A stretch of 64,000 nt of DNA. Origin: a bacterium BMS3Bbin10. Its GTDB lineage: Bacteria; Pseudomonadota; Alphaproteobacteria; Rhizobiales; Methyloligellaceae. Location of the stretch: assembly GCA_002897995.1 (NCBI GenBank), contig BDTT01000113.1, forward strand, positions 33,932-97,931. Reading direction: 5' to 3'. The translations under genes were made by a program, and so were the position numbers. Positions 13,623 through 35,383 of this stretch are shown here, piece after piece. How positions within the stretch are numbered: position 1 is the stretch's first letter; each line of letters begins with the position of its first letter. Under the pieces are notes generated by a model. That model saw only the letters and a list, made by a program, of their open reading frames with translations, was not told where the DNA came from and made no database searches.

Positions 13623-13832
13623 TCAGGAACGGCCGCCGCGCCGGATGGAGCCGATCAGGTAGAGCAGCAGCCCGGTCCCGAGGAGTACGGCGTGGAAAGG
13701 GACGACCTCGAAACCGTCGCGCCACGACAACATGATGTTCAGCCACCCCAGAATGACCAGGATGACGCCGAATATCCGGAAAATGGCGCCGCGGCTGTTG
13801 CCGCCGGGCAGGTCCGCAGCCTCGTCCCTCAT
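13623..13832 (-). CDS. Small two-TM membrane protein at the end of the respiratory cluster
   Basis: MRDEAADLPGGNSRGAIFRIFGVILVILGWLNIMLSW...; overlaps upstream gene. Confidence 0.6.
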   Translation of the reverse strand: MRDEAADLPGGNSRGAIFRIFGVILVILGWLNIMLSWRDGFEVVPFHAVLLGTGLLLYLIGSIRRGGRS

Positions 13833-15376
13833 GACGCCTCATCCTCGCTCCGGGCCGCCGCGCTGCGGCCCCACCAGATCAGGATACCGCCGATAAGCAG
13901 CGTGACGATGATGGCCAGTATCATCGGCCTGGCGCCTTGCGAGGGTTTCAGCAGGAGCCAGTACCAGGTTGTCATGGCGTGGCGCAGGCCGGCCTCGGAG
14001 TTGGAACCGTCCCAGGTGAAAAATGCGATGGGGATGAAAAGGCCTTCCTCGAATTGCAGGTCCTTGTCCACTGCCCCCGTCGTCAGCGGCCGGGTCATGA
14101 CGACCCGCCAGGTTCCGGCCTTGTAACTGCCCGTGGCGGTGAGCCCGGCGGAGGTCTCGCGTATTTGCTGCGCGCCGATTCCACTGGCGTCGATGAGCGC
14201 CACGCTCTGGGGCTTTTGCGTCGTGCCGCTGGACCAGCGCCAGAGATTGACCGGCTTGACCGCGCTGCCCATGAGAAAATAGGGCTTTTCCATGCCATAG
14301 GGGATTTTTCTCGGGAACTGAACGGCTATGGCGTCTTCGGCAAGTTCCTCGTCGGAAACTTTCTGGGCGTTGGCGTCGCCGGGGATACTTTTCGTGCGGT
14401 CATCCCATTCCAGATGAAGGCTCACATTCTTTTCGTTATAGAGGGCGCGCACGCTGACAGTGTCGTTGGCGGTCTTGAAAAAGCGCGGCCCGACGACAAT
14501 CTGGGGGACCATGAAGAAGGTCGACGGCGGCGCATTGTCCCAGGCCGGATCGTCCGGCGAAGCGGGAAGCTCGCCCTCGATGCGGGCGGCCTGGATAACC
14601 GTGTTTTCGGGCCGCACCACCCTCTCGGTCTTCGCCAGGGACGCCACATAGTTGGCGACGTTCCAGCGCTCCTCGATGCTCAGCTTCTTCTTGCTCTTGG
14701 GGTCGGCGAATGACGGCATCTGGGTCGTCGGAATGCCCGCCGATATGCGGGTGAAGATGTCCTTGGGATCGTTGCTGGCGCGGAAAGTCCAGGGCTTGGT
14801 CAGATTTCGGGGCCAGGTCCGCTCGCCATTGTCATCCTTCAGCTTTTTGATGGCGTCGCCCTTGCCCTCGACGCCGTGGCATTCCGTGCACCGGTCGCCG
14901 GCGAGAAAGAGCTTCTTGCCCGCGGCGATGCTTTCGGGTGAGGATTTCACTTGGGCGCCGTAATCCACCTGTCCTTCGGGCTCCCCCTCCAGTTCGGCGA
15001 AGGTCTTGATATAGGCGATGACATCCCACATGTCCTGATCCGACAGCATGTCGCTCCAGCCGGGCATGGCCGTGCCGGGCATGCCGTCGCGGACCATGCG
15101 GAACAGGTCTTCATCATTGGGGAGATCGGCGTCGAAGGCCGATGAGATGATCTTGTAAAGTCCAAGCGTGAAGTCGCGGGGCGAGGGGTTCAGGCGTTCA
15201 GCAGCCGGGCCAAGACCGTCCCCCTCCTTGCCGTGGCATTGCAGGCAGCGCATGGCGTAAATCGCCTCGCCCTTCTCCACGTCACCCGGCTTGGCCAGCG
15301 CCGGACCATGGGGGAGCGCCAGCAGCAAGGCGGCGGCCAGCAAAAAAAGTGTTTTCACCAAACCACTTCCCATCAT
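13829..15376 (-). CDS. Di-heme cytochrome c with ethylbenzene-dehydrogenase-type heme-binding domain and C-terminal TM (module A)
   Basis: CLQCH and CTECH; EB_dh-like C-terminal region; C-terminal TM anchor; paralog of 20514-22172. Confidence 0.8.
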   Translation of the reverse strand: MMGSGLVKTLFLLAAALLLALPHGPALAKPGDVEKGEAIYAMRCLQCHGKEGDGLGPAAERLNPSPRDFTLGLYKIISSAFDADLPNDEDLFRMVRDGMPGTAMPGWSDMLSDQDMWDVIAYIKTFAELEGEPEGQVDYGAQVKSSPESIAAGKKLFLAGDRCTECHGVEGKGDAIKKLKDDNGERTWPRNLTKPWTFRASNDPKDIFTRISAGIPTTQMPSFADPKSKKKLSIEERWNVANYVASLAKTERVVRPENTVIQAARIEGELPASPDDPAWDNAPPSTFFMVPQIVVGPRFFKTANDTVSVRALYNEKNVSLHLEWDDRTKSIPGDANAQKVSDEELAEDAIAVQFPRKIPYGMEKPYFLMGSAVKPVNLWRWSSGTTQKPQSVALIDASGIGAQQIRETSAGLTATGSYKAGTWRVVMTRPLTTGAVDKDLQFEEGLFIPIAFFTWDGSNSEAGLRHAMTTWYWLLLKPSQGARPMILAIIVTLLIGGILIWWGRSAAARSEDEAS

Positions 15377-16140
15377 TCACTCTCCCAGGATCGCGGGTGA
15401 TGGCCCGTATAGTCATAGAGATAAAGGATCACCTTCCAGATTTCGTCTTCCTTGAGAAAATCCTGCCAGACCGGCATCGACGAAATCCAGGGCGCCGCTT
15501 CCTTCGGCAGCCCCGGGCCGCCCGTGGCTATGCGCCAGAACAGATAGGATTCCTGAAGCTGTGCGATGGTGCCCACATCCTGGAAGTTGAGCGGCGTCGG
15601 GTTGAGCCCGGCAGCGTAGGGCCCCTTGCCGTCGAGTTTGTCGCCGTGGCAATACTGGCAGTTCTGAATGTAGACGATGGCGCCCTCCTCCACCAGTTCG
15701 CGGAACTTCTCCGGGTCTTCCTTTTCGAACTTCCGGTAAGGGTTCTCCAGCTTCAGGAGATTGACCCGCTTGCCGAATATCTTCGCCGTGGTCGGGGGCG
15801 CGGGATGGATGGTTCGAAGCTCCAACGGCGCCTCGAAACTGGGCTGCATCTGCATATAGGCGCCCGCACCCGCCACCAGCGGCACGACGGCGAAGACGAT
15901 GTTGCGCCAGATGCGCTTTGACGGGTCCTCGACCAGGGCCTTGATGGGGGCCACCAGTTCGCGCGTCTGATCCTCGTCATAGGTAAACACCATGAACACG
16001 CCGGCGACGACGAAGAACATGTACATGGCGAGCAGGCTGGAGGGAATCACCGCATCGAGGAGAATGTCGAAGACGATGATAAATCCGTAATAGACCCCGG
16101 CAAGGACCAGCACGGCCTGCAGCAATCTGGGTATTTTCAT
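15373..16140 (-). CDS. Membrane-anchored mono-heme cytochrome c (module A)
   Basis: N-terminal TM segments; CQYCH; YLFWRIATGGPGLP shared with the module B paralog. Confidence 0.85.
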   Translation of the reverse strand: MKIPRLLQAVLVLAGVYYGFIIVFDILLDAVIPSSLLAMYMFFVVAGVFMVFTYDEDQTRELVAPIKALVEDPSKRIWRNIVFAVVPLVAGAGAYMQMQPSFEAPLELRTIHPAPPTTAKIFGKRVNLLKLENPYRKFEKEDPEKFRELVEEGAIVYIQNCQYCHGDKLDGKGPYAAGLNPTPLNFQDVGTIAQLQESYLFWRIATGGPGLPKEAAPWISSMPVWQDFLKEDEIWKVILYLYDYTGHHPRSWESE

Positions 16141-16153
16141 TGCCCTCGCCTCC

Positions 16154-16981
16154 TCACTTCAGTCCAGCCAGGAAACTCACCAGGACTTCCAGTTCCGAAA
16201 CATACAACTGCTCGCCCATGCCCTCCGGCATCTGGTCCGGCTCGAAGCCCTCGGCAATATCGGCGTTGGGATCGAGGATTGAACGGCGCAGATAATCCCG
16301 GTTGCGGAGGGCGCCGATCTTGGAGAGGTCCGGCCCGATCTCGCCGCCCACGCCATTGATCATGTGGCACGCGTCGCAGGTGAACATGGCGATCAGTTTC
16401 TCGGGATCGCTGATTGCTTCGCGCGGCTCGGCCTCTGCCACGTCGGCTTCTTCACCGCCTTCTTTTTTCTTCCCCAGATCCTTGGGAATCTCGACGGTGA
16501 CCTCGGCGCCGCTGCTGTCCTGGAGATAGGCGACGACGGCGGTAATTTCGGCTTCATCAAGGCGAATGCTGCCGCCGGACACATCCGGCATGGGGCTTTC
16601 GGCGTCGTTGGTGCCCTTCTTGCCAAACCCGGCGACGACAAAGGCCGAAGGCTTGACCAGGGACTCAATCAGATATTCCTCGATGTTCGTCGCTTCACCC
16701 TTGTAGCGGGGGTCCTTGAGCCGCTGCTGCGCAACTTCGCCGATCGTATCCAGCAGGGGCGCGCGGCCAAGATTATTGTGGCAGAGCGTGCAGGTGCCCT
16801 TGCCGCTGAAAAGCTTCTCGCCCACGGCGATGAACTGATCCATGGTCATCGAGCCGAGGTCGAGCTTTTCCTCCTTGGGCGGCGGCGCCGGCTCGATCTG
16901 CGGTATGCCGAAGTTGGAATACCCGGCGAAGAAGCCAATGGTCAGCAGCGAAAAAACTATTACGGAGAGGAACTGCCGCAT
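16154..16981 (-). CDS. Di-heme cytochrome c (module A)
   Basis: CTLCH and CDACH; N-terminal TM/signal. Confidence 0.85.
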   Translation of the reverse strand: MRQFLSVIVFSLLTIGFFAGYSNFGIPQIEPAPPPKEEKLDLGSMTMDQFIAVGEKLFSGKGTCTLCHNNLGRAPLLDTIGEVAQQRLKDPRYKGEATNIEEYLIESLVKPSAFVVAGFGKKGTNDAESPMPDVSGGSIRLDEAEITAVVAYLQDSSGAEVTVEIPKDLGKKKEGGEEADVAEAEPREAISDPEKLIAMFTCDACHMINGVGGEIGPDLSKIGALRNRDYLRRSILDPNADIAEGFEPDQMPEGMGEQLYVSELEVLVSFLAGLK

Positions 16982-16987: not shown

Positions 16988-18829
16988 CTACTCCTTCCAA
17001 TACCCGGCCGGCAGCGTCTTGTTGCCGCTGACCTGGGCGATCCAGAAGACGAAAATCACCATGGCCATGAAAATGATGGCCGCGACGGAAACCACGTTGG
17101 CCGCATAGCCCAGCGTCGGCGTGAAAGCATCCGGCGACGCATCGCGCATGATGTCGACCACGTGCCAGTGCTGGCGGATGCCGGAGCGAATATATCCCAT
17201 CAGGCCCATGAGCCAGGTGAAGGAGACGGCCAGCAGGAACAAGGCGTACTGGGCCCGCCCGGGGATGCGCCCCCAATGCAGCGGCCCCACTTGCTTGCCG
17301 CCACGGTAGATGAAGGAATCGAGGGTAATGCTGCCGACGATGACGATCAGCGTGGTCAACACCTGCGGGATCGAAGCCGCCACCTTGTAGACGGTGTTGG
17401 TGAAGTATCCGTGGTAGATGCCGAGGAACAGGATATTGGCGATACCGGCTGTATAGAGCGCCACCTGAATTGCGTTGCCGGCGTTCACCCAGGACACGGT
17501 GGCGATCTTGTTGGCGCGCCGGTAGAACATGAAACTGAGCGCGGTGAAGATGATCATCACATTCACCGCCGTGTTCTTCGCCGGCATGATGCCCAGCGGC
17601 CCGAGATACTTGTGATACGGACCGCCCAGCGCTTTGAGCTCCTCGTTTGTGAGCACCAGGGTATGCGGCGTAAACCAGACCAGGAACGCGCCGACCAGAA
17701 CGATGGCGATATACTTGATATATTTGGTGTAGCGCTTGGCGCCGTCGCTGCGCCCCATGCCGCACCACAGATAATAGTTGGCGGACAGGAACAGCGTCCC
17801 GATCAGCACCGCCTGAATGATGAACAGCCAGGCGAAAATGCCGCCCATGAGGGTAATCCCCATCTGCTGGCTGTAAGCGTAAATCTCGGCCGCCAGGTAA
17901 TAGCCGGCGAAGGGCAGCGGCAGTAATGCGCAGATGGCGATGAAGTTGGCGTTGTAGCCCATCCAATCGTAATGGGCCCGCTCCTGTTTGGTCGTGGCGG
18001 TGAGGAACTTGAAGGCCGCGTAGGCGCCGACGATGGAGCCGCCATAGGCGATGTTGGCGACGAAACGATGGATGTTGATGGGGTTCCAGAGGAAGTTGTG
18101 GATCGCCGCCCAGGCATCGCCGCTGAAAACGCCGGCGGCGTCGACGCCCGCCGGGCTCATCATGAAGGTCAGCCAGGAATTGGCGAGCAGCATGAGCGTC
18201 GTGCCCACCGCGTTGAGAACGAGGCCCAGCGTCAAATGCACCCACTTCTTGAAGCCGCCCTGCAGCCAGTGCCAGCCGTAATAATAGATGTAGAGGGCGG
18301 CGCTTTCGGCGAAGAACAGGAGCGCATAATAGATCATGCTCTCTTTGAAGATGGTCGAGAGATAGGTGAACAGATGCGGATAGAACAGGATCAGGGAGAA
18401 CAATAAAGCCCCGCCCAGCACGGCCGTCAGCGAATAGGCGGTGATGGAGACCTTGATGAATTCATAGGCCATGTCGTCATAGCGCTTGTCGCGGGTGCGC
18501 ATGCCGATCGCTTCGATGATGAAGACGAAAATCGGCACGGCCAGGACAAAGGCCGCGAACCAGAGATGCAACTGGGCGAATATCCAGACCGCGACCCGGC
18601 TGTTGATGCCGGCGATGGACGGATAATCCGCGGCCGTGAGTTTCGGCGCCGGCCCGTAGGGACTGGCGGCGGCGGCATCGGCGGCCACCTCCTGTTCAGC
18701 GGCTATGGCGCCGAGTTGATCGAAACCGGAAAGGGCGAAGGCCACAAGGGCTACGACGAATCCGAAGGTCACCAGCAACAACCCGGTTTTTACGGTCCGT
18801 CCGGTCTTTCTGGAACGAGGTCCGTTCAT
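16988..18829 (-). CDS. Cytochrome bd oxidase subunit I (CydA)-like multi-TM protein (module A)
   Basis: AQLHLWFAAFVLAVP, FFAESAALYIYYYGW, MLLANSWLTFMMSP, NPINIHRFVANIAYGG; homologous to 24187-26325. Confidence 0.8.
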   Translation of the reverse strand: MNGPRSRKTGRTVKTGLLLVTFGFVVALVAFALSGFDQLGAIAAEQEVAADAAAASPYGPAPKLTAADYPSIAGINSRVAVWIFAQLHLWFAAFVLAVPIFVFIIEAIGMRTRDKRYDDMAYEFIKVSITAYSLTAVLGGALLFSLILFYPHLFTYLSTIFKESMIYYALLFFAESAALYIYYYGWHWLQGGFKKWVHLTLGLVLNAVGTTLMLLANSWLTFMMSPAGVDAAGVFSGDAWAAIHNFLWNPINIHRFVANIAYGGSIVGAYAAFKFLTATTKQERAHYDWMGYNANFIAICALLPLPFAGYYLAAEIYAYSQQMGITLMGGIFAWLFIIQAVLIGTLFLSANYYLWCGMGRSDGAKRYTKYIKYIAIVLVGAFLVWFTPHTLVLTNEELKALGGPYHKYLGPLGIMPAKNTAVNVMIIFTALSFMFYRRANKIATVSWVNAGNAIQVALYTAGIANILFLGIYHGYFTNTVYKVAASIPQVLTTLIVIVGSITLDSFIYRGGKQVGPLHWGRIPGRAQYALFLLAVSFTWLMGLMGYIRSGIRQHWHVVDIMRDASPDAFTPTLGYAANVVSVAAIIFMAMVIFVFWIAQVSGNKTLPAGYWKE

Positions 18830-18851
18830 GCTTTTTTCAATCCCTCATCCC

Positions 18852-18974
18852 TCATTTGTAAAATATCAGGCTCAGGCCCTGCATGTTCATGATGGCCATA
18901 TCGAACAGCAGGAAGGCCACCAAAAAGACGGCCAGAGCGCCGGCGAAGGGCAGCAGATAGCCTTTGATATCCAT
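18852..18974 (-). CDS. 40-aa single-TM peptide
   Basis: Manual translation MDIKGYLLPFAGALAVFLVAFLLFDMAIMNMQGLSLIFYK; GGAAGGGAG upstream; absent from ORF track (below size cutoff). Confidence 0.6.
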   Translation of the reverse strand: MDIKGYLLPFAGALAVFLVAFLLFDMAIMNMQGLSLIFYK

Positions 18975-19001
18975 GATGCGTCTCCCTTCCAGCGTTCACG
19001 C

Positions 19002-19112
19002 CTAGGCCTGAACGAACCACCAGAAAAATGCGATCAGCAGGACCAGAACAATAATGAACAGGGCCGGCCCGGCCCAGGGAAAACGTTCGGGTTTGCTGTC
19101 TGTCTTGGTCAT
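19002..19112 (-). CDS. 36-aa single-TM peptide
   Basis: Manual translation MTKTDSKPERFPWAGPALFIIVLVLLIAFFWWFVQA; GAGGG upstream. Confidence 0.6.
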   Translation of the reverse strand: MTKTDSKPERFPWAGPALFIIVLVLLIAFFWWFVQA

Positions 19113-19419: not shown

Positions 19420-19788
19420 TTATCCCTGTTTTCCCTTGCACTTGCAGAGTTTACGCAAATGCTTGATCAGCCCGTCGACCTGCTCGGACGTCAGGGTCTT
19501 GCCCCAGGGCGGCATGAGCGGTGACTTGCTGACCGCCGGCCCGCCATCCAGGATGACGTTCTTCATGTCCGCGTCGGAGAGTTTGTCCATCTCCTTGGCG
19601 CTGGTGAAATCGCGCGGGGTGACGGGGAAGTCCTTGGTGACATTGGGACCGTCACCCTTGCCGCCCAGGCCATGGCACTGGGCGCAATAGAATTTGAACA
19701 CCGTTTCCGTTTCCGCCGACCATGCCGGCGCACCGCCTATGGAGGAAGCAAGGACAAACGGCACAAAGAGAACCAAAAATCGTTTCAT
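19420..19788 (-). CDS. Mono-heme cytochrome c
   Basis: Signal peptide, FKFYCAQCHGLGGKGDGPN. Confidence 0.88.
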   Translation of the reverse strand: MKRFLVLFVPFVLASSIGGAPAWSAETETVFKFYCAQCHGLGGKGDGPNVTKDFPVTPRDFTSAKEMDKLSDADMKNVILDGGPAVSKSPLMPPWGKTLTSEQVDGLIKHLRKLCKCKGKQG

Positions 19789-19803: not shown

Positions 19804-20478
19804 CTACTTCTTCTTCGCTTTGAAATTGGACACATAGGTCGCCACGTTTTTGATGTCCTTGTCCTTGAGAATGCCGGCGAAGGTGGGCATGGCCTTGACC
19901 GGTTTGAAGACGGTGGGATTTTTCAGGTAAGCGTATATCCAGTCCGGATTGAGACGCTCGCCCGCGCCAACCAGGGAGGGACCGCTGCGCCCGCCCGATA
20001 TCTTTCCCTTGCGGCCCGATGCCTGGTGACAGCCGCTGCACGGCATCTTCTTGATGAAGATCTGCTTACCCTTGACGTTCCTCTTTGGCTTGATGACGCC
20101 CGCCTCGACCGCATCCACGGTCAGGCTCATGAGGAAATCCGTCACATTGGCGGCGTCATCGCCCGCCAGCTTGGGGTGATCGTCGGCATTCTCTTCGTCA
20201 AGGCTGTTGAACTTCAGGGGGCGGATCGGTTTCGGGTCGGCAAGCCACCCGGCCAGCCAGCCCTTCTGGAATTTGGACCCGGCGTACCAGAGCTCCGGCC
20301 CTTTCTTGGCCAGCTGGTCGTCGATGGTTTTCTCCCTGGCCGGGCCGTCCGTATAGTGGCATTGGGCGCAGCCCTTGGCCTCGAAGACGGCCTTTCCGGC
20401 GGCAGGTTCAGCTGAACTGGATGACGCCGCGGCAATCAGGAAGGCCGTACTCAGGGCCGCTTTGAGTATAGATTTCAT
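19804..20478 (-). CDS. Di-heme cytochrome c
   Basis: Start trimmed to MKSILKAALSTAFLIAAASSSSA; CAQCH and CSGCH. Confidence 0.85.
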   Translation of the reverse strand: MKSILKAALSTAFLIAAASSSSAEPAAGKAVFEAKGCAQCHYTDGPAREKTIDDQLAKKGPELWYAGSKFQKGWLAGWLADPKPIRPLKFNSLDEENADDHPKLAGDDAANVTDFLMSLTVDAVEAGVIKPKRNVKGKQIFIKKMPCSGCHQASGRKGKISGGRSGPSLVGAGERLNPDWIYAYLKNPTVFKPVKAMPTFAGILKDKDIKNVATYVSNFKAKKK

Positions 20479-20513
20479 GACGTTCTCTCCTCCAATTCGT
20501 ACATCCGGCGGGC

Positions 20514-22172
20514 TCACGCTTTTGCCTCCGCCGTCTCCTCTTCGTTCTCCGCCCTGCGCATCAGCCATACCCCCGCGCCGCCCGCAATCAGGAAAGCCAG
20601 GATGGCGTAGATATAGACGCTGATGGGCGTCGGAGCCTCCAGGGTCACATAGTGCCAGGTGCTGAGGCTCATGATCAGGCCATGCTCGCCGTTGGAGCCG
20701 TCCCAGGCGTTGGCGGACATGGGAATGAACACGCCCCTCTCGAAGCGCACGTCATTCTTCTCGCCGGTCACCAGCGGCCGTTTCATGACCACGCTCCAGC
20801 GGCCCTGATCCCATTTCGCCTTGCCGCTGACCTGCTGGCTGTCTTCGGCCTGTATCTTGATGGGCTGCTTCCAGCCGCGCGCGTTGCCTTCCTGCGTACC
20901 TCGCTTGCCGGCCTCGGCCAGATCCGCCTTCCAGACCCACAGCTGCACCTGATCAGAGGAGCTTCCGCGGAAAAAATGCGGCTTCTTGGTGCCCTGAGGC
21001 GGCTTCACCGGAAATTGCAGCGCTACGGAATCGCGAAAGGTTTCCAGCTCCCGCGACACCATGCCGTTGGCTTCCACGTAGGAATTGAAACCGCCCACCT
21101 TGGATATCTCGGCGGTTTTGAATTCCTTCGATTTGTCATGGACGACGTCCTTGAAGGGGTCGTCCCAGGTGAGCCGGAAGGCGATGTCCTTGTCATTGAA
21201 CAGCGCTTTCACGGTCACCATCTCGATGCTCGGATTCTGCCAGCGCGGCGGCGCCACCACCTGGCCGGTCAGCCGCATGTCCATGGATTCGGCTGCATCC
21301 CAGGCCGCGTCCTCCGGGCTTTCCGGCAGTTCCCCCTGGACAGGCTTCGCCTTCAGGGCCTGATTGGTGGTCAGTTTATGCTGAAGCGACTTGATGTAGT
21401 TGGCCAGATCCCAGCGGTCCCCCTCGCTCAGGGTCTTGATGAAGGACGGCATGGGCGTGCCGCTGATGCCGGTCGTGAACCGCATATAGATATTCTCGAC
21501 GTCCGTCCCCGCCTTGATCTTCCAGGGATGGGTGACGTTGCGGATACGGATCGGGAAGCCCCAGTCGTCCTTGCGGAACTCCTTGTTTCCATCGCCGCGG
21601 CCGAGTTTGCCGTGGCAGCTCCAGCACTTGGCCCTTTCGAACACTTCCTTGCCCCTGGCGATGGTTTCATCGTTGTAGGGCGCGCGGTTGGCGGGCAGCG
21701 CGACGACCTTGCCGGTCTTCACCGGATCGAGCTCGGGGTCGTCGAATTCCGGGGCGAAGGTCTTGATGTAGCCAATCACCGCCCAGCGGTCGGCCTCGCT
21801 GAGGCCGTTCTTGATCAGGTCCCTGTCGAAGGACTGCATGGCCGTGCCCGGCAACCCCCGGCTGACCGTCCGGAACAGGTCCTCATCGGTGGGCAGCTCG
21901 CCGCTTTGCGTGGTCCGGAACTTGTAGGTGCCAAGCGTAAAGTCGCGGGGCCTGGGGTCCAGATACTTGGCGGCCGGCCCCTCGCCGTCGCCCAGCAGGC
22001 CGTGGCAGAAGCTGCAGCGCCTGAAATAGATCGCGCGGCCTTTTTCCAGCAGCTCCTCGGTCGCCTCGGGCATGGGCTTGCTCGGCGTCTCGGCAGCCAT
22101 GACCGGGCCTGACATCCACAGGACGGCGAAAGCGGCAATGGCGGCGGCGAGCATTTTATGGGCGGTCCGCAT
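20514..22172 (-). CDS. Di-heme cytochrome c with EB_dh-type heme-binding domain and C-terminal TM (module B)
   Basis: Start trimmed to MRTAHKMLAAAIAAFAVLWMSG; CSFCH, CWSCH; paralog of 13829-15376. Confidence 0.82.
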   Translation of the reverse strand: MRTAHKMLAAAIAAFAVLWMSGPVMAAETPSKPMPEATEELLEKGRAIYFRRCSFCHGLLGDGEGPAAKYLDPRPRDFTLGTYKFRTTQSGELPTDEDLFRTVSRGLPGTAMQSFDRDLIKNGLSEADRWAVIGYIKTFAPEFDDPELDPVKTGKVVALPANRAPYNDETIARGKEVFERAKCWSCHGKLGRGDGNKEFRKDDWGFPIRIRNVTHPWKIKAGTDVENIYMRFTTGISGTPMPSFIKTLSEGDRWDLANYIKSLQHKLTTNQALKAKPVQGELPESPEDAAWDAAESMDMRLTGQVVAPPRWQNPSIEMVTVKALFNDKDIAFRLTWDDPFKDVVHDKSKEFKTAEISKVGGFNSYVEANGMVSRELETFRDSVALQFPVKPPQGTKKPHFFRGSSSDQVQLWVWKADLAEAGKRGTQEGNARGWKQPIKIQAEDSQQVSGKAKWDQGRWSVVMKRPLVTGEKNDVRFERGVFIPMSANAWDGSNGEHGLIMSLSTWHYVTLEAPTPISVYIYAILAFLIAGGAGVWLMRRAENEEETAEAKA

Positions 22173-24182: not shown

Positions 24183-24186
24183 GGCG

Positions 24187-26349: not shown

Positions 26350-27129
26350 CTATTCCGAGTACTCGAAATTAGCGTCGACTGTCCCCTTCGCCGAAACCTT
26401 GATCTTGGTTTTCTTGACGCCGTAACGCGGATGCCACGCCTTCAGCGTGTATTCGCCGGGCGGAATGTTATCGATGGAGAATGACCCGTCATCGCCGACG
26501 ACCACGGCATAGGGATGCGACGGCGCCAGCAGGTAACCGAACATGAAGTTATGGGCTTCGCAGTTGATGCCGATATAGGACGAGCGCCGTGGCTTGATCT
26601 TGTCCCTGAGGTCGCCGGGTTCAGGCTGGCCGAAGTTGAACAGGGTCTTCTTGACCACGCGGCCCTTCTCGACACCGATCAGCTCGCGAGCGTTGATGTT
26701 ATGAAGCACGCCGAGGTCGGAATTGCGAATGACGATGGGGCCGGGCCGCACGACCTGGGCCCAGGGGAGGAACCGGCAGCCCTTTTGATCGACCATATAT
26801 TCGCCGAACTCGGGCTTCTCCCATTTTTTGCCCTCTTTGATCTTGCTGATGAAAACGAAGACGCTGCGCAGCGCGCCGTCCTTGACGTCGACCCAGACGA
26901 CCTCGCGCTCGCCCTTGCCGCAAACGTCGGCATTCTTGGTGATGAGAATCTTCTCAATGCCGTCGGAGGGTACATCGCCCTTGAAGGTCACCTTGCCCTT
27001 GACGGTGCCGCCATCGGCAACATTCACTTCCTTGTATTTGCCGGGCTTGGCTGCATCCGCCGGCGCCACGAACGCAACCGACGCGAAAGCGGCGAGTATG
27101 AGACTGGTGATAAATCTGCTGGATTTCAT
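26350..27129 (-). CDS. Exported protein with carboxypeptidase-regulatory/cupredoxin-like features
   Basis: Signal peptide MKSSRFITSLILAAFASVAFVAPADA; VLHNINA...INCEAHNFMFGYL (CxxHxxM); C-terminal YTLKAWHPRYGVKKTKIKV beta-sandwich-like. Confidence 0.65.
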   Translation of the reverse strand: MKSSRFITSLILAAFASVAFVAPADAAKPGKYKEVNVADGGTVKGKVTFKGDVPSDGIEKILITKNADVCGKGEREVVWVDVKDGALRSVFVFISKIKEGKKWEKPEFGEYMVDQKGCRFLPWAQVVRPGPIVIRNSDLGVLHNINARELIGVEKGRVVKKTLFNFGQPEPGDLRDKIKPRRSSYIGINCEAHNFMFGYLLAPSHPYAVVVGDDGSFSIDNIPPGEYTLKAWHPRYGVKKTKIKVSAKGTVDANFEYSE

Positions 27130-27143
27130 GGGAATTACCTCCG

Positions 27144-29405
27144 TTATCCTTGTCCTTCGCGATCCGGAACCTCCGCGGTCCGAACCGGATGTGAACAGTT
27201 CAGTTCCTCCAATGCTTCGATGGCGACGGACCAAATTCGCTTGCGATCGGGGTTCTGGAGTATATCGACAAACTGGGCGCTGGCCCGGGTGGCGTCCAGA
27301 TCCCGCAACAAACGGGCTGCCAGCCGCCCGTGATAGCCCTCGAATGAGAGGGCAAAATCGACCAACAGCTCGACAGTGCCGTCGCCACCGACGCCGGCAA
27401 TGGCTTCCGCGGCGCTCAGGCGCACGGATGGATCGGGATCGTCGAGCAGCGCCTCGATCTCCGAACCGACCCGGCCCAGGCGGAAAAGCGCACGAACCGT
27501 TTCGGTGCGTACAAAACTGTCTTCATCGCCGATCTGCTCGACCAGAAAAGCCGGCGCCGCTTCGCCGCCAGCCGCGGCCAGGGCGCGGATCAGGAGAAGT
27601 TTCAGGTCCCGGTCCGCCTCCGCCGCCGTGGCCATCAGGATTTCCGTGACCGTATCGGGAAGCGGACTTAAATGCTCGCCAATGCGGGCCAGCGAGTCAG
27701 CCGCCGCCAGACGCAGCTCGGCGTCTCCGTTTTCGAGAGCGCCCGCCAGTTCATGTGCCACGTCGGCATGATGAAGATCCCCCAGAACCCTGGCTGCAAA
27801 GTGGCGGATATCTTCATGCAGCACCACATCCGGCGACAGCGGCATGCGTTTTTTGCCCCTGATGCGCTTCGCCAGGGCCAGGCGCTCCATGTCCATCGGA
27901 GTCAATTCGACGCCTTCTTCCGGCAACCCCACAACCTCGCGCATTTCGGGCGCGTCGTCGAGGATTGCGCTCATGGTCGAAGTCGGAAACGCACCGGCGT
28001 CCTCTTCGTTTTCCGCCACGCTCGCTGACGCGGGCTCGCCCTCTTCTTCGCCCGGATCTTTCGGGGCGGCGGTCCCGGCTTCCGTGTCATCGCCGGCCTC
28101 GGGCTCGTAACCGCCCCGCAGGGCGAAAAGCAGCGCCTCACCGGCGGCGTTGGGCCAAACTGTATCGGCCCGGGCCAGCCGCGCCAGGGCCGGCATGGTT
28201 TCCAGGCGGATCGGCCGCTCCTCGTCACCGATCATGCCCGCAAGCGCTTCCACCGCCCGCTCGCCGCCGGCCGCGGCCAGCCCCTGGAGCGCACCACGGC
28301 GGGCGTCAATGGGCCTGGCGGTGTCGCCAAGCAATGGGATCAGGTCGTCCGCCGCCTCTTGCGGTACGAGCGCGGCAAGGGCGCGGGCGGACGCCGCCGC
28401 GACCGCGCCGGTTCCTTCTTCCAGCTTTTCCCGGAGCGCCGCGACCAGAGCTTCGTCCGCGGGTAAATCCTGTGTGTCCCTGAGTGCCCTCAGAACCGCC
28501 AGCTGCACGGAATTCGAGGTGTCGTCGATCATGGCCGCGAGGCGGTCCGGATGCTGCCCGCCGATAAGGCGAACGGCCTCGGCGCGGACCGTTGCGTCGG
28601 GATCTTCGAGCAGCGCCGCCAGGCGGCCGTCCGCCGGATCCCGCGCCACCAGCGCTTCCATGGCGGCGCGGCGCACTTCGGCGGACTGATCGGCGAAAGC
28701 GCGCGCCAGCGGGCCGGCCGCTTCCGCGGTGCCGGAGGCGGCCAGGGCCGCCGCGGCGCGGCGGCGCAGGCGCACGGAATCTTCGTCAAGAAAACAGGCG
28801 AGCGCCTCGATGCCCGGCTGTCCCATCCGTGCCAGAGCCTTAAAAGCCGCCTCGGTCATGTCCTGGCCATCTTCGAGCTGCATGGCTGCGACGATATCGG
28901 GCACGGCCTCGCCGGCGTCAAGTTCCGCCAGTGCGTCAACCGCCTTGATCTGGATATCGACCCAATCGTCCCAGCCGCTGGAGTAGAATTCCTCTTCATC
29001 CCAGATGATTTCTTCGTCGCGTCCCTTGACCATGCGCTGAAGCCAGGGAATGACCCGCTTGTCCTGCAGTTTCGCCAGCGTCTCGATGGCCGCCAGCTTG
29101 ACCTCCGTACAGGGATCGCCGAGCAGGTTCTCGAAGAGCTGCTGGCCGGCCTGCGGATCGGCCAGTTCCGAAAGCGCCTCGGCGGCATCGGTGCGGACGT
29201 CTTCGTCTTCGTCCAGCAGGGCCGCGATCAGGGGCTGAACGGCGGCCGGAGCCCCGATGCGCCCGGAGGCCCGGGCCGCCAGACAGCGGTGCACGTCGAC
29301 ACCATCACTGAGGATCCCGTTCAGCACCTGGCATACTTCGTCCAGTACCGGCTGGGAAACCGGCGCCTTTTCCCGGTCCGTAGGGTCCTTGTGATGGATA
29401 TTCAT
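27144..29405 (-). CDS. HEAT/PBS-lyase repeat protein
   Basis: Repeated units such as VQPLIAALLDEDEDVRTDAAEALSELAD and LLDDPDPSVRLSAAEAIAGVGG; no signal peptide; start trimmed. Confidence 0.85.
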   Translation of the reverse strand: MNIHHKDPTDREKAPVSQPVLDEVCQVLNGILSDGVDVHRCLAARASGRIGAPAAVQPLIAALLDEDEDVRTDAAEALSELADPQAGQQLFENLLGDPCTEVKLAAIETLAKLQDKRVIPWLQRMVKGRDEEIIWDEEEFYSSGWDDWVDIQIKAVDALAELDAGEAVPDIVAAMQLEDGQDMTEAAFKALARMGQPGIEALACFLDEDSVRLRRRAAAALAASGTAEAAGPLARAFADQSAEVRRAAMEALVARDPADGRLAALLEDPDATVRAEAVRLIGGQHPDRLAAMIDDTSNSVQLAVLRALRDTQDLPADEALVAALREKLEEGTGAVAAASARALAALVPQEAADDLIPLLGDTARPIDARRGALQGLAAAGGERAVEALAGMIGDEERPIRLETMPALARLARADTVWPNAAGEALLFALRGGYEPEAGDDTEAGTAAPKDPGEEEGEPASASVAENEEDAGAFPTSTMSAILDDAPEMREVVGLPEEGVELTPMDMERLALAKRIRGKKRMPLSPDVVLHEDIRHFAARVLGDLHHADVAHELAGALENGDAELRLAAADSLARIGEHLSPLPDTVTEILMATAAEADRDLKLLLIRALAAAGGEAAPAFLVEQIGDEDSFVRTETVRALFRLGRVGSEIEALLDDPDPSVRLSAAEAIAGVGGDGTVELLVDFALSFEGYHGRLAARLLRDLDATRASAQFVDILQNPDRKRIWSVAIEALEELNCSHPVRTAEVPDREGQG

Positions 29406-29481
29406 GGATAAAATCCTCGGTCCAAACGCAGTTACGGGCCCGGCTGGACGCAATGGCCCCCAGCCGAGCCCGCAATAACTA

Positions 29482-32157
29482 TCAGATGATGTCCCTCGGT
29501 GCGAACGACATCGAACGGAATGTTCTCTTGTAGGGTGACTCGCCGATCTTCTTCACATTGGCGACCCCCATCTTGTAGTTGTAGTTACCGCTGATCCAAT
29601 CGACGATACGGCCTTCCAGGGCATTCGCCGGTTGCGACGTATGCAGGAAGTCCATGTAGATGATGCCCTTCTTGATGTGGCGCGTGACCATGGCGACACC
29701 GGTGACGGCGGCCCGTGTCAGTTCCACATTTCCGGCTTTCATCTGACCGGAGAAGGAATAGTCGCTCCCCTCCACGCCAAGGATCGTTTCCTTCAGGGAC
29801 GGCACGCGGTCGGAATAGACCATCAGCATGTCGCCGCTCTCGATACCGCGTTCCTTCGCGTCATCGGGATGCATTTCGACATAATTGTCGGGCCAGCGCT
29901 GAACGATGTAGGGCCTGCGCCGGTCGTCGAAACCGGACTGCCAGCGTTCGTTGGTGCGCCCGGACGTGCACCACAGTTCACTGCCCTTCGGCTTCATCCA
30001 TTCCCAATAGTCCGAGAACAGGGACCAGGGCGACTTCTGGATGTTGCAGCGACCGGTCTGGCTGTTGAAGTGCGTCAGCTTCTTGTTGAACATGTTGGCG
30101 CCCCTGGGACCGGTTCCCTTCAATTTGAGCGTCGTGTCGTGAAGCCGTTTGGAACCGACCAGGGAACCGTCGTCCCTCATGAAGACAGGCCCCTGGATTC
30201 CGTTGGTGCCGAATTCACCAAGCTTCTGATGCAGGGTCTTGCCCTCGCGGTGGGCGGCGACCTTGATCATGTTGAAGTCCTTGCGGCTGCCGCGCGAGAA
30301 GCGCGCCGATTCCTCGGCGACGTCGTTGGTGTCCTTCCAGTCGAAGCCGTCGAAGCCCATGCGCTTCGCCAGTTGGGCGATGATCCACCAGTCCGGCTTG
30401 GCCTCGCCGGGCGGATCGTAGAACTGGTTGTAGAGCCGGAGACGCCTCTCCCCGTTGGCCCGCATGAAGGTGTCCTCGCCCCATGTGGCCGCCGGGAAGA
30501 TAATGTCGGCGTAGCGGTTGCCGATCGGATCAACCAGATAAATGTCCTGGTTAATGACCACCATGCCGCCGGAGTCGGCGCGCTTTTTCAGGGTTTCGAT
30601 GATGTCCTGCTTGTCGTAGGAGCGCACCTGATGGGGATTGGCCACGGTCAGTTCCTCGAACCGCTTGGCCAGTTGCTGCGAACCGCACATGGCCTGGATC
30701 CATGTCGTGCCGATGACATGCGCGAAGCGCGTATGCCCCGACATCAGCCAGGTATCGGTATCCAGGGCGCGACGCCTGCGTCCGGGCACCTTCATCGGCG
30801 ACTTGTTGCGCGGGTATTTGCCGCCGCGCTGACCGCCGCGCTGATGACCGCCCGCCCTGCCGACAACCTGGCCGGGCCTGCCGCCGGCGCCGACGATGAT
30901 GGCCAGGGCCCCGATCGCCTCGGTGTTGCCGGTGTTATTGGACCAGTAGAAGCCCTTCTCGATCATGATCGAGGTTTTCGGCCGCTTGCCGTTCTTCTTC
31001 GGCTTGGCCATCCATTCGGCCGCCGTCTGGATCTTCGCCACGTCGATGCCGGCCAGCCTGGCGGCGTTTTCAGGCTTGAATTCGTCCTGGGCCAGGAGCC
31101 ACTTCTTCCAGTCCTCGTATCCCTTGGTCTGGAATTTGCCCCAGGTGGTGCGCCACTGCCACGGCGTGTTGCGGGTGCCCTGACCGAAGCCGGAGCTGGA
31201 GCCCCACTTGTTGTTGACCCAGTCCTTGATCCATTTCGCATCCTGCCAGCCATTCTCGGCAATGATCCGCGCAATGGCGTTGACGACCAGCAGATCGGTG
31301 CCGAGATTGACATCGAGCCACAGTCCGCCGTTCTTTTCCGCATAGGCCACGCCGGCGGTGCGGCGCGGGTTCATCATGATGCATTTCTGACCGTTCTGGA
31401 TGCCCTTCATAATCCACTGGGTCCAGAGGATGGTCTTTGTCTCATAGGGGTCCGTGCCGCAGATCAACAGAGTCTCGGCATTCATCCAATCCTCGTAGGC
31501 CGGGCCGAAATTATCGAAACCGGCGTCACGGAAGCCCGGCGTCGAGGACACGTCGGAGGGCGTGTCGTGGAAGGTGAAGTTGGCCGTGTTGATGTGGCGC
31601 AGTGCGAATTTGGTGATGGCGTAGGTGTTCTCGATGAACTGATAGGAGTAGGTCTTGACGCCAAAAGCGTTGGCGCCGTGCTTCGTGCGCACGTAATTGC
31701 CGACCTCCGCCGCAATATCGAGAGCGAAATCCCACGGAACCGGCTGAAGGATGCCGTAGATTCGCAACATCGGCGAACTCAACCGGTCACGGGTGGGGGT
31801 TTGCGGATTGTAGCATTTCTGCGCGATGCAGCCGCCGCGCAGGCTCGAATCGCCGTCGGTATTGACGAACTTCGTATCCTTGTCGGGAACGATCACGACG
31901 TGGTTCGGTTTGCCGTTATGCAGCACAATATTATGCTGGTTGGGCGCCACCCAGGGGCCCAGTACTTCTACCGGAAAATCGACCCCGAAGGCATTCTGAT
32001 CGGCCTTTGGACCGCCTTTGTTATTGCCCGCTACAGGCCAACGATAGACCTTGAAGCCGCAGGCGACAATGCAGTAGTCGCAGGCCGTGGTGATCACTTC
32101 CGCGCCCTTGGGAGGGAGGGGAACATTGGTTTCTGGAATATAGTACGGAGTAGACAT
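29482..32157 (-). CDS. Molybdopterin oxidoreductase, arsenite oxidase/iodate reductase (AioA/IdrA) family catalytic subunit
   Basis: N-terminal TACDYCIVACGFKVYRWP (CxxCxxxC), SLRGGCIAQKCYNPQTPTRDRL, AGGHQ segment, 891 aa, adjacent Rieske subunit. Confidence 0.85.
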   Translation of the reverse strand: MSTPYYIPETNVPLPPKGAEVITTACDYCIVACGFKVYRWPVAGNNKGGPKADQNAFGVDFPVEVLGPWVAPNQHNIVLHNGKPNHVVIVPDKDTKFVNTDGDSSLRGGCIAQKCYNPQTPTRDRLSSPMLRIYGILQPVPWDFALDIAAEVGNYVRTKHGANAFGVKTYSYQFIENTYAITKFALRHINTANFTFHDTPSDVSSTPGFRDAGFDNFGPAYEDWMNAETLLICGTDPYETKTILWTQWIMKGIQNGQKCIMMNPRRTAGVAYAEKNGGLWLDVNLGTDLLVVNAIARIIAENGWQDAKWIKDWVNNKWGSSSGFGQGTRNTPWQWRTTWGKFQTKGYEDWKKWLLAQDEFKPENAARLAGIDVAKIQTAAEWMAKPKKNGKRPKTSIMIEKGFYWSNNTGNTEAIGALAIIVGAGGRPGQVVGRAGGHQRGGQRGGKYPRNKSPMKVPGRRRRALDTDTWLMSGHTRFAHVIGTTWIQAMCGSQQLAKRFEELTVANPHQVRSYDKQDIIETLKKRADSGGMVVINQDIYLVDPIGNRYADIIFPAATWGEDTFMRANGERRLRLYNQFYDPPGEAKPDWWIIAQLAKRMGFDGFDWKDTNDVAEESARFSRGSRKDFNMIKVAAHREGKTLHQKLGEFGTNGIQGPVFMRDDGSLVGSKRLHDTTLKLKGTGPRGANMFNKKLTHFNSQTGRCNIQKSPWSLFSDYWEWMKPKGSELWCTSGRTNERWQSGFDDRRRPYIVQRWPDNYVEMHPDDAKERGIESGDMLMVYSDRVPSLKETILGVEGSDYSFSGQMKAGNVELTRAAVTGVAMVTRHIKKGIIYMDFLHTSQPANALEGRIVDWISGNYNYKMGVANVKKIGESPYKRTFRSMSFAPRDII

Positions 32158-32170: not shown

Positions 32171-32761
32171 CTATCCTTGCAGATTGTCGTAACGGCCGTA
32201 GATCAGGCCAAACACGCCAACGGCGTAGATGTCGTCACCATCGAGCTCAAGCAGCACCTGCGGAAGGCTTTGGTAGGCCTGACCGGAAATCAGAATGCCG
32301 TGCCGGGTCAGGTCGTAAGTGGAAAGATGCAGCGGGCAGGCGCCCATCGACTTGGTTTCCCCCTTGTAGGAACCCGCCAGATCGCCTCCCTGATGCGTAC
32401 AGAAGGAATTGAAAGCGACCACGTCTTTCTGCGGCCCGATGCCGCCGCCGGCCTCCGTACCGAGCTTGACCAGCATGGATTGTGCGTATTCGCCTTTGTC
32501 GGGATACTCGAATTCGACCGGTACGTCATCTTTCAGTTCACTCAACTTGGCGATCTTCTTGCGCGGATAGGTGGCGACCTCCGCCGGCACCTTGGCCGCC
32601 ACTGAAGTGCCCGGATTCAGGGTGACTATGACCGTAGCCGACGCCAGACCGGAGGAGAGCAGAAACTTCCGCCGTGACATCAGGCATTTTCCAGCCGGGC
32701 TGTCCTTCTTCGATGGCGCTTTGGGCGCGCCGGGTTCGTGGGTCTTTATCTGATCTGTCAT
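32171..32761 (-). CDS. Rieske [2Fe-2S] small subunit, AioB/IdrB-like, Tat signal
   Basis: SRRKFLLSSGLASATVIV Tat-type signal; CTHQGG ... CPLHLSTYD. Confidence 0.88.
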   Translation of the reverse strand: MTDQIKTHEPGAPKAPSKKDSPAGKCLMSRRKFLLSSGLASATVIVTLNPGTSVAAKVPAEVATYPRKKIAKLSELKDDVPVEFEYPDKGEYAQSMLVKLGTEAGGGIGPQKDVVAFNSFCTHQGGDLAGSYKGETKSMGACPLHLSTYDLTRHGILISGQAYQSLPQVLLELDGDDIYAVGVFGLIYGRYDNLQG

Positions 32762-32775: not shown

Positions 32776-33939
32776 TTAATTCGTATTCGCTACGGCAGGC
32801 AGCGGCGCATAGGGAGGAAGTTTCGGTGTCGGAATCTTGATCTCCTCGCCACTCAGCGATTCCAGGAAGGCAATCAGATCTTCCTTCTCCTTGTCGCCCA
32901 GCTTCAGCGGCTTCAGGAGTTTCGCCTTGTTCTTCGCCATGGTGCCGTCGGTGAACTCGTTGGACCCGCCTCCCGCATTGTAGAATTCGACGATTTCATC
33001 GAAATCGAAGAAGGAGCCATTGTGCATGAATGGCGCCGTGTAGGCGGTGTAGCGCAACGGAGCCGTGCGGAATTTGCCCAAGTCGGATTTCTGCTTGGTC
33101 CTGTAATAGAGCCCCGCATCATCCTTGATCTTGCGGTACATTTCCTCGGTCACGCCCTTGGCGTACTGCTCGTAGCGGAAGGTGACCTGGGCCATGCCGT
33201 TATCCAGCCATTCCTCGGCGCGCGGAACGCCAAGGTTGTAATATTTCTGGTCGCTCAGCAGCGGACCGTTATGGCACTCGACGCACCTGGCCTTGCCCTG
33301 GAACAGCTTGAGGCCGCGTTTCTGCTGTTTCGTCAGCGCGTCCTTGTCGCCGCGCATATATTTGTCGAACGGCGTATTGTTGTGAATCATCGTCCGCTCG
33401 AAGGCGGCGATCGCCTTCCAGGCGTTGTTCACCTTGGGCCAGTCGTCGCCGAACACCTCGTTGAAGCGCTTGACATATTCGGGGATAAAGGCGAGCCGCG
33501 CCTCGATCATGTCCCGCTCGCCGTTGCCGGATATCGCGCCCAGCGCCGCGCTCGGCGCCTGCTTTTCAAGCGATCCGGAAGAGCCGGCCCAGAACAGCTT
33601 GCCGAGATAAGCGGAGTTGACGACCGTCTGGCTGTTGCGCCAGTGGACCACGCCCGGATAGCCGCGCGATAGCGGATCGTTGAAGCCCCAGCCCTGTTTC
33701 TGCGCATGGCAATCGGCGCAGGAAACGGATGCGTCGCCGCCGATACGCGTATCGAAGAACAACAGCTTGCCAAGTTCAATTTTCTCCGGGGTTTGCTTGT
33801 TATCGAGTGGAATCGGTGGCGGCCCGAGGGCGGCCAGCGGTGGGTTCACATCGGCTGACGCGGGGGATCCAAGCCCTAGGCCCGCGAGGCCGAAGGAAGT
33901 TGCGATGATCGCGAGGGATAGTGTCTTGCCCTTTTTCAT
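32776..33939 (-). CDS. Di-heme cytochrome c peroxidase/MauG family (IdrP-like)
   Basis: VSCADCHAQKQGWG, ARCVECHNGPLLSDQKYYNLGVP, PLRYTAYTAPFMHNGSF. Confidence 0.88.
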   Translation of the reverse strand: MKKGKTLSLAIIATSFGLAGLGLGSPASADVNPPLAALGPPPIPLDNKQTPEKIELGKLLFFDTRIGGDASVSCADCHAQKQGWGFNDPLSRGYPGVVHWRNSQTVVNSAYLGKLFWAGSSGSLEKQAPSAALGAISGNGERDMIEARLAFIPEYVKRFNEVFGDDWPKVNNAWKAIAAFERTMIHNNTPFDKYMRGDKDALTKQQKRGLKLFQGKARCVECHNGPLLSDQKYYNLGVPRAEEWLDNGMAQVTFRYEQYAKGVTEEMYRKIKDDAGLYYRTKQKSDLGKFRTAPLRYTAYTAPFMHNGSFFDFDEIVEFYNAGGGSNEFTDGTMAKNKAKLLKPLKLGDKEKEDLIAFLESLSGEEIKIPTPKLPPYAPLPAVANTN

Positions 33940-33949
33940 TGCCTTGTTC

Positions 33950-35122
33950 CTAATTCCTCTTGTTCAGCCAATCTTTGATCGCCGTGTAATTCACGTTGAT
34001 CTTTTCTTTCCAGACATGCTCCGGCCCGGTCAGGGGCTCTCCTGAAAGGGACTTCAGGAAGACCACCAGATTGGCCTGTTCTTCCCTGCTCAGGTTGAGC
34101 GGTTTGATGCGCGGATCCTTGTTGGGATCACTGCCGCCGCCCCGGTTGTAGAAGGCGACAACGTCTTCCAGCGTCTTGATCATGCCGTTGTGCATATAGG
34201 GCGCCGTCTGGGTCAGCTCGCGGAGCGTCGGCGTCATGAATTTGCCGATATCCGTGCCGTCCGACTTGTGGGTGCGGACGTGAGCTCCGACATCGCGGCG
34301 GATATTCATGTAATTCTCGATGCCCATGAACATGCTGAACGACACATAGGTGATATGCCGCATGGGATTCGACCAGATTTCCGGATTTTCAGGCACACCC
34401 GTATTATGCGCCTTGTCGTCGGAAAACCTCGGTCCGGAGTGGCATGCGGCGCAGCCGGCCTTGCCCTTGAACAAATCGAAGCCGCTCTTGGCGGCGTCCG
34501 ACAGATTTCCGGTATCGAAGGGCGCGCCCCGTGAGGTGAGGGTTTTCAGATACTCGGGAATCGCCTTGCGGATAGAGCCGTTGGAGGGTTCGCCGTAACC
34601 CGCCTCCTTGAACATCTTCACATAGATCGGGTCCTGTTTGACGCGCTCCTGCATCAGGCGCATGTCCATGTTCATGGAGTAGGTCTCGGTGATCGATTCG
34701 CGCGTTACGTCATTGAGGTTGGTGCCGATCCGCCCGTCATGGAACCACGCCGCTTTTTGCGCGGTGTTAATAAGCGTCGGCGTGTTCCGGAAGCCATCCG
34801 ACCCCGGATAGGCCTTGGACAGCGCCAGGCCGTCAGCAAATCCTTTTGCCGGAATATGGCATGTGGAACAACTGATTGCGGCGTCACCGGACAGCCGCGG
34901 ATCGAAAAACAGCCGCTTGCCCAGAGCTGCTTTTTTTGCGTCGACCTTCATCTGCTTCACGGGACCGAAATCACTCGCCAATACCGGCGATGCGGCAATT
35001 GCGACGCCCACCGCCAAGGCGATGCGCCAACCAATTCCCGACGAAATTCTTCTATTCATCGCTAAACCCTTCCAAAAAAGAATGACCGCACCGAAAAACA
35101 CTCTCTTCGCGTTTTCGGGCAT
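33950..35122 (-). CDS. Di-heme cytochrome c peroxidase/MauG family (IdrP-like)
   Basis: ISCSTCHIPAKGFADG, GCAACHSGPRFSDDKAHNTGVP, PTLRELTQTAPYMHNGMI. Confidence 0.88.
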   Translation of the reverse strand: MPENAKRVFFGAVILFWKGLAMNRRISSGIGWRIALAVGVAIAASPVLASDFGPVKQMKVDAKKAALGKRLFFDPRLSGDAAISCSTCHIPAKGFADGLALSKAYPGSDGFRNTPTLINTAQKAAWFHDGRIGTNLNDVTRESITETYSMNMDMRLMQERVKQDPIYVKMFKEAGYGEPSNGSIRKAIPEYLKTLTSRGAPFDTGNLSDAAKSGFDLFKGKAGCAACHSGPRFSDDKAHNTGVPENPEIWSNPMRHITYVSFSMFMGIENYMNIRRDVGAHVRTHKSDGTDIGKFMTPTLRELTQTAPYMHNGMIKTLEDVVAFYNRGGGSDPNKDPRIKPLNLSREEQANLVVFLKSLSGEPLTGPEHVWKEKINVNYTAIKDWLNKRN

Positions 35123-35383
35123 CTAGCCATCCGTTTCCGCCTTATCCTTCGCCGGTAGGGGAACGCCACTGATGCGTTCCAAAAACTCCTTCATTTCCGA
35201 CAGGCTCTGGAAGTAAGTTTCCTCTTCCCCCTGAACATGCCGAATGTGTCCGCGCCAGATCGGATTGTCTGCCGACTCCCCTTCCAGCCAGATACGCACT
35301 ACGAACGACCCTTGTGTTCCTGGACCGACCATTTTGCTTCCGCTGTTTCCTACCGGTGTCCTGCTCCGGCGGAGCAAGTCCAT
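35123..35383 (-). CDS. Small conserved-looking protein at head of respiratory cluster
   Basis: MDLLRRSRTPVGNSGSKMVGPGTQGSFVVRIWLEGESADNPIWRGHIRHVQGEEETYFQSLSEMKEFLERI; the longer ORF to 35488 reads through direct repeats, so a shorter start is preferred. Confidence 0.55.
   Translation of the reverse strand: MDLLRRSRTPVGNSGSKMVGPGTQGSFVVRIWLEGESADNPIWRGHIRHVQGEEETYFQSLSEMKEFLERISGVPLPAKDKAETDG

Follow-up and report, generated by a model that had tools for sequence, protein, structure and literature searches.

An iodate reductase (Idr) locus and a duplicated membrane module built on CydA-like proteins form one 22-kb gene block in the alphaproteobacterium BMS3Bbin10. We analysed a 64,000-nucleotide stretch of contig BDTT01000113.1 from this organism (hereafter the window); the source genome is a 3.18-Mb draft of 137 contigs, 98% complete. 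The link between Idr and the module recurs across many uncultured marine bacteria and is not described in the open-licence PMC literature that we searched, where no paper combining idrA with a cytochrome bd term was found. Among 290 genomes of the class, with the module scored by its second CydA-like protein (CydA-o), IdrA occurs in 11 and CydA-o in 10, and seven genomes have both (p = 1.2e-9; this value and the one given below for the radical-SAM gene ignore shared ancestry among the genomes). The original prediction for this stretch, a respiratory supercluster around an Aio/Idr-type molybdoenzyme, had named beforehand a failure of the molybdoenzyme and CydA/cytochrome genes to be co-conserved as its refutation. 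Because these genes are co-conserved, that refutation fails.

Results

Organization of the block

All of the genes called from 35488 to 13623 are encoded by the minus strand, and their junctions range from -97 to +55 nt. The single exception is a gap of 590 nt (18830-19419), which contains two conserved mini-genes, each encoding one transmembrane (TM) segment. The block has two parts. The first is idrP-idrP-idrB-idrA with a HEAT gene; the second is a duplicated four-gene module (h-i-j-k and o-p-q-r), each copy encoding a CydA-like protein, a diheme cytochrome c, a membrane monoheme cytochrome c and a diheme-c/EB_dh protein. Also linked, beyond the limit first drawn for the set, are the gene of a BTAD regulator (35548-36522) and, on the plus strand, the usp-radicalSAM-hemY trio (37033-41443). 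The features are as follows.

35548..36522, minus: BTAD/OmpR-type regulator at the head of the block (Pfam BTAD, 86.5 bits; same place in 14 loci)
35123..35488, minus: small gene 'a', without a family, kept in window-type loci (tblastn, 16 loci)
33950..35122, minus: idrP, di-heme CCP/MauG family, two CXXCH (PF03150, 130.7 bits; synteny)
32776..33939, minus: second idrP, di-heme CCP/MauG, two CXXCH (PF03150, 140.6 bits)
32171..32761, minus: idrB, Rieske subunit with an SRRKFLL Tat-type signal read in the translation (TIGR02694, 119.7 bits, cut-off 95.65)
29482..32157, minus: idrA, molybdopterin catalytic subunit, C-x2-C-x3-C, without a signal peptide (PF00384/PF18465; IdrA clade)
27144..29453, minus: HEAT-repeat protein, nine repeats (PF13646; 85 loci)
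26350..27234, minus: secreted beta-sandwich, putative type-1 copper protein (weak CarboxypepD_reg-like matches only; C-x2-H-x2-M by eye)
24187..26325, minus: CydA-like 'h', 712 aa, module 1 (PF01654, 43.4 bits; AF2 model, pLDDT 82.9; top Foldseek matches all bd CydA)
23193..24212, minus: diheme cytochrome c 'i', module 1 (PF00034, 54 bits; TIGR02603, 104.3 bits)
22172..23137, minus: membrane-anchored monoheme cytochrome c 'j', module 1 (PF13442; hydropathy)
20514..22268, minus: diheme-c + EB_dh protein 'k', 584 aa, alternative-NxrC-like, module 1 (PF09459, 73.3 bits; two Cytochrom_C domains; C-terminal TM segment)
19804..20568, minus: diheme cytochrome c 'l' (PF00034, 63.4 bits)
19420..19788, minus: monoheme cytochrome c 'm' (PF13442, 41.9 bits)
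19002..19112, minus: mini-gene n1, 36-aa single-TM peptide (..PWAGPALFII..WWFVQA; conserved in L042, L045, L046, L051, L162 and L166)
18852..18974, minus: mini-gene n2, 40-aa single-TM peptide (MDIKGYLLPF..MNMQGLSLIFYK; conserved in L046 and L162)
16988..18829, minus: CydA-like 'o', 613 aa, module 2 (PF01654, 57.7 bits; AF2 model, pLDDT 80.3; Foldseek match bd CydA)
16154..16981, minus: diheme cytochrome c 'p', module 2 (PF00034, 46 bits)
15373..16140, minus: membrane-anchored monoheme cytochrome c 'q', module 2 (PF13442, 33.1 bits)
13829..15376, minus: diheme-c + EB_dh protein 'r', module 2 (PF09459, 88.8 bits; two Cytochrom_C domains)
13623..13832, minus: 69-aa two-TM open reading frame (ORF) closing the block, its stop at 13623 (translation)
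37033..38727, plus: universal-stress protein with PCP_red domains, module-linked (PF00582, 123.5 bits; PF08369, 89 bits)
38676..40031, plus: radical-SAM/SPASM protein, NirJ2/AhbD-like, with a PCP_red domain (TIGR04055, 321 bits; TIGR04545, 311 bits; both below the cut-off of 500)
40028..41443, plus: HemY-type protoporphyrinogen oxidase (TIGR00562, 239.7 bits, cut-off 97.85)

The ORF calls bear out the single-strand arrangement with short or overlapping junctions that had been predicted, apart from the 590-nt gap. The predicted total of 17 CXXCH motifs is reproduced exactly: both peroxidases have two apiece, as do i, k, l, p and r, while j, m and q have a single one. Pfam and NCBIfam also return most of the families listed then (CCP_MauG twice, Rieske, molybdopterin with Rieske_3, HEAT, Cyt_bd_oxida_I twice, EB_dh twice and many Cytochrom_C); the gene called cupredoxin-like has no match to a cupredoxin Pfam family. 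ORF 'n_97' (18826-19119) was rejected, as its frame differs from that of the two likely mini-genes. No Rfam family was found at 12000-42000 of the window.

The identical gene set and order occur in L045, L046, L051, L058-L064, L128 (SAR324) and further loci. Because the same genes recur in the same order elsewhere, the block is not a product of chance.

Co-conservation of Idr and the module

Of 87 IdrA rows, 35 are loci with module genes, four have the heme-related trio only, and 31 have neither in flanks that reach about 8.5 kb or further in both directions; the other 17 are too short to score. Flanks are truncated in part, and draft metagenome-assembled genomes (MAGs) are among the sources. 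Two arrangements were found. In the window type the module lies downstream of idr (also in SAR324 L128); in type II, seen in Alpha- and Gammaproteobacteria, o-p-q-r lies upstream of idr. The entire block is present in L046 and G342 and, with changes, in SAR324 L128. On the IdrA tree the module trait changes about five times, and several deep branches have it. Among the named relatives, which are the best 80 of the genome scan, module carriers are MAGs, and the isolates listed (Ruegeria, Labrenzia, Pseudovibrio and others) have no module.

Each part is also found without the other. Idr occurs without the module in Ruegeria, Roseibium, Pseudovibrio and on an Azonexus plasmid, and the module without Idr in G139, G113, G103, G378 and G587. 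The original prediction of a complete electron-transfer chain is partly supported: the supercluster is a true, co-conserved one, but the evidence does not establish a single obligate chain.

The molybdoenzyme

Synteny, phylogeny and the loss of arsenite-site residues indicate that the window molybdoenzyme, correctly assigned before to the Aio/Idr type, is better classed as Idr than as Aio. For that reason its substrate, which had been left open (iodate, arsenite or another), is less open than stated. Of about 90 loci in the genome scan, nearly all keep the order idrP-idrP-idrB-idrA, and the HEAT gene follows idrA in most alphaproteobacterial idr loci (85 loci in all). Marine IdrA proteins that are 74-93% identical to the window protein come from many alphaproteobacterial families. 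One genome, G012, has two copies, on contigs C29 and C174, with 87% and 83% identity to that of the window. The split between IdrA and AioA-like proteins, to which the window protein is 33-34% identical, is supported at 100 in a tree whose IdrA clade is anchored on synteny and a 48%-identical Azonexus copy and contains no experimentally tested IdrA sequence.

We take the arsenite-site residues of AioA to be His195, Glu203, Arg419 and His423. At these positions window IdrA has Pro, Asn, Arg and His, so two of the four are lost; Pro replaces His195 in 88 of 90 IdrA proteins, that of the window included. The signal pattern, read by eye in the translations, is that of Idr: Tat for IdrB, none for IdrA and Sec-type for IdrP. 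Window IdrA nevertheless scores 418.7 bits against the NCBIfam arsenite-oxidase model TIGR02693 (cut-off 359.05), and because of this automatic annotation will mislabel it; the model evidently takes in IdrA as well.

The definition of Idr rests on idrABP1P2 synteny, the pattern of signal peptides and kinship (PMC8692401); iodate reduction at low O2 is known from marine aerobic alphaproteobacteria that carry idr (PMC11445184). The window locus shares with Pseudomonas sp. SCT, Denitromonas sp. IR-12 and Aromatoleum TC-10 the four genes, their order, a Rieske/Tat small subunit, a signal-less large subunit and kinship to AioA; unlike those strains, its clade adds the HEAT, copper-like and CydA/EB_dh/cytochrome modules. 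The Azonexus plasmid copy is the nearest relative examined of the tested-Idr clade. It has the same idr gene order, with two-component, cytochrome c and moaA genes in place of the module, and its accessory genes match the set given for confirmed iodate reducers (PMC8801600).

The CydA-like proteins

AF2 models of h and o, with about 17 and 14-15 long helices respectively, find confident Foldseek matches only among bd oxidase subunits. A profile alignment against 29 canonical CydA sequences and E. coli CydA covers nearly the full protein (probability 97.5% for o). H19, E107, H126 and H186 are retained. By contrast, E99, E445, K252 and E257, present in 29/29 canonical CydA proteins, are found in 0/33 bd-like homologues: E99 is replaced by an invariant Tyr in all 33, no acid stands at the E445 position, M393 is not recognisable, and the Lys252/Glu257 pair of the Q-loop is absent from both h and o. 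E99 and E445 have been tied to hemes b595 and d (PMC6853902). Because the Q-loop, E99 and E445 are lost, the sequences speak against classical quinol oxidation and O2 reduction, although an altered chemistry is possible.

How do these proteins compare with known bd systems? They share with canonical cytochrome bd (CydAB/X) the CydA fold and the four retained residues, and the mini-TM peptides, possibly CydX-like subunits, recall CydX; unlike it, the module lacks CydB as well as the residues listed above. A canonical quinol bd oxidase was rejected on the loss of the Q-loop and heme ligands. The OR-N CydAA' bd-like oxygen reductases likewise have a pair of CydA paralogues and no quinol site; they differ from the module proteins, in which E99 has become Tyr and E445 is absent. 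The CydA-like protein appeared in none of the plasmid records searched, and a scan of viral contigs found no relative.

Heme genes and an alternative partner

The radical-SAM gene was found in 9/290 genomes, comprising 9/10 module genomes and 0/280 others (p = 2.8e-16); it was found in 0/4 genomes with IdrA alone. The trio of Usp/PCP_red, radical-SAM and HemY genes flanks the module in many loci, including the idr-less L162 and L163. Its radical-SAM protein best matches the NirJ2 and AhbD models. These observations suggest that the module has a heme-related task.

Sixteen module genomes were examined for partner enzymes: 11 have IdrA, three have the clade III, lactonase-type nitrous oxide (N2O) reductase L-NosZ, two have neither and none has both. 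In two idr-less genomes, G378 and G587, L-NosZ (785.8 and 753 bits, cut-off 700) adjoins the module as Idr does in the window; the genes lie at 14949-16706 of L193 and 14857-16632 of L195. In G139 L-NosZ lies on another contig and is 78% identical to the 785.8-bit copy. Weak matches, at 30%, seen elsewhere are probably ordinary NosZ. In L162 (G139:C75) a truncated k and then l-r come immediately after the regulator and gene 'a', as if the idr-to-j segment had been lost; this may also be a misassembly. In L164 and L196 the module, with no idr nearby, stands behind a histidine-kinase/NtrC-like pair, accompanied in L196 by usp.

Discussion

A set of the same kind stands beside nitrite oxidoreductase (NXR) in Nitrospira, Nitrospina and Kuenenia (PMC6606698, PMC3578206). 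There alt_NxrC_2 clusters with two membrane c cytochromes and bd-like_3, is duplicated downstream, and is kept in anaerobic anammox bacteria (PMC6606698); the bd-like protein has 14 TM helices and no quinol residues (PMC3578206). In this cluster type TM helices take the place of the Q-loop. The module matches this 'bd-like oxidase / alternative NxrC' cluster type in gene content and architecture: a bd-like protein without the Q-loop, mono- and di-heme cytochromes c, a diheme-c protein with a heme-b domain and cupredoxin-like genes (compared by eye), and a duplicated bd-like gene as in Nitrospira. It differs in its partner, which is either Idr (Aio branch of the dimethyl sulfoxide (DMSO) reductase family) or L-NosZ, and in its link to the radical-SAM trio. 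The EB_dh proteins fall below the cut-off for the DMSO-reductase type II gamma subunit (TIGR03477, 88.6 and 107.6 against 169.85 bits); the PF09459 domain itself is matched.

We favour, with a confidence just short of even, the view that the module is an electron conduit between the membrane and a high-potential periplasmic enzyme, not a classical oxidase, and that it runs here to iodate. Periplasmic IdrAB and the two di-heme peroxidases would be joined to a membrane electron-transfer complex in which the CydA-like proteins serve as b-heme conduits, possibly as an h/o heterodimer with the mini-peptides as small subunits. Electron shuttling between this complex and IdrB would fall to the EB_dh/cytochrome proteins and to the putative copper protein. 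Electrons would most likely pass to iodate at low O2 in alphaproteobacteria such as this one, and to N2O in some Idr-less module genomes. The arrangement can be likened to the complex proposed to anchor Nitrospira NXR and link it to the quinone pool, itself a suggestion only (PMC6606698, PMC3578206).

Several points weigh against a conduit. Without the Q-loop the CydA-like proteins have no recognised quinol site, so a route to the quinone pool is without residue-level support. Idr alone suffices for iodate reduction where this has been tested. The OR-N relatives have been called putative O2 reductases that oxidise cytochrome c (PMC10839748), and a di-heme site, even when altered, may remain able to reduce O2. 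The tie to Nitrospira and anammox bacteria is one of gene content and architecture, not of sequence comparison. Finally, neither Idr nor L-NosZ was found with the module in G103 and G113, both drafts (G113 is 87% complete).

A broader proposal, possible but on balance doubtful, is that the module is a respiratory complex in its own right and a portable one: a relative of bd, not an oxidase, that has its own heme-making enzymes and couples Idr, L-NosZ and the NXR of nitrifiers and anammox bacteria to the membrane, perhaps conserving energy, in either direction.

The main rival to the conduit is a cytochrome-c-dependent bd-like terminal reductase of the OR-N/CydAA' type, which we consider unlikely. 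Such an enzyme would reduce O2, possibly NO, with high affinity, scavenging O2 beside the O2-sensitive Idr or L-NosZ from a common cytochrome pool at the oxic-anoxic edge. It would account for the bd CydA fold, the two CydA paralogues expected of CydAA', the dedicated heme genes and the stand-alone modules with an NtrC-like two-component system; the putative activity of OR-N is in its favour too, as is the finding that low O2 favours Idr activity and expression (PMC11445184). It is harder to reconcile with the invariant Tyr at E99 and the loss of E445 in 33/33 homologues, since both residues matter for the heme b595/d site (PMC6853902), with the retention of the related NXR-side cluster in strictly anaerobic anammox bacteria (PMC3578206), and with the three heme-copper oxidase subunits I already present in the host genome.

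Alternatively, two unrelated respiratory units may share a mobile island, the module having its own task and its link to Idr reflecting joint horizontal transfer. Module and Idr do each occur alone, IdrA identities of 91-93% across different families and genera suggest transfer, and G139 retained k-r while missing idr to j. This explanation is nonetheless improbable: SAR324, Alpha- and Gammaproteobacteria preserve gene order, strand and overlapping junctions across two different arrangements, and the module trait rarely changes on the IdrA tree.

It is very improbable that Idr works oxidatively in this clade, turning iodide into iodate, with electrons passing through the EB_dh proteins and cytochromes to the bd-like complex and on to O2, like those from nitrite in nitrite oxidisers. 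The gene set is of the type found beside NXR (PMC3578206, PMC6606698), the IO3-/I- potential (+0.72 V) lies below that of O2/H2O (+0.82 V) (PMC8801600), the module-bearing IdrA clade has no clearly tested strain, its named loci being from uncultured MAGs, and the window genome has a form I RuBisCO. Yet iodate reduction is what the Idr enzymes tested so far carry out (PMC8692401, PMC11445184), L-NosZ, the other partner, is a reductase, the NapA and NarG-type nitrate reductases of the window genome fit an anaerobic respirer, and RuBisCO is unlinked to the module (2/10 against 16/280, p = 0.12), which leaves autotrophy as a rule for module carriers unsupported. The loci encoding NarG, NapA and the form I-like RuBisCO are L171, L172 and L178. 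Last, an arsenite oxidase, to which the TIGR02693 and TIGR02694 scores would point, was rejected and has almost no credence given Pro at His195, Asn at Glu203, the separate clade and the adjoining idrP genes.

New here are the tracking of the module by the radical-SAM gene, the Idr-less module genomes with clade III N2O reductase, the two mini-membrane ORFs, and the finding that both CydA-like proteins have lost the quinol loop as well as E99 and E445. The co-occurrence of the radical-SAM gene and the module leads us to predict that the heme is unusual or is made by a dedicated route. Marine idr carriers split into two types whose energetics may differ, a distinction relevant to how iodide is produced in oxygen minimum zones. 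The bd-like/alternative-NxrC cluster is without an established function (PMC6606698, PMC3578206), and nitrite oxidisers and anammox bacteria are hard to manipulate; the proteobacterial module opens the cluster to genetics. Since a set of this kind also stands beside Idr and N2O reductase of Proteobacteria, its function is narrowed to a trait common to high-potential periplasmic redox enzymes. The pairing of Idr with the module gives a handle on the role of a poorly understood membrane complex known mainly beside NXR.

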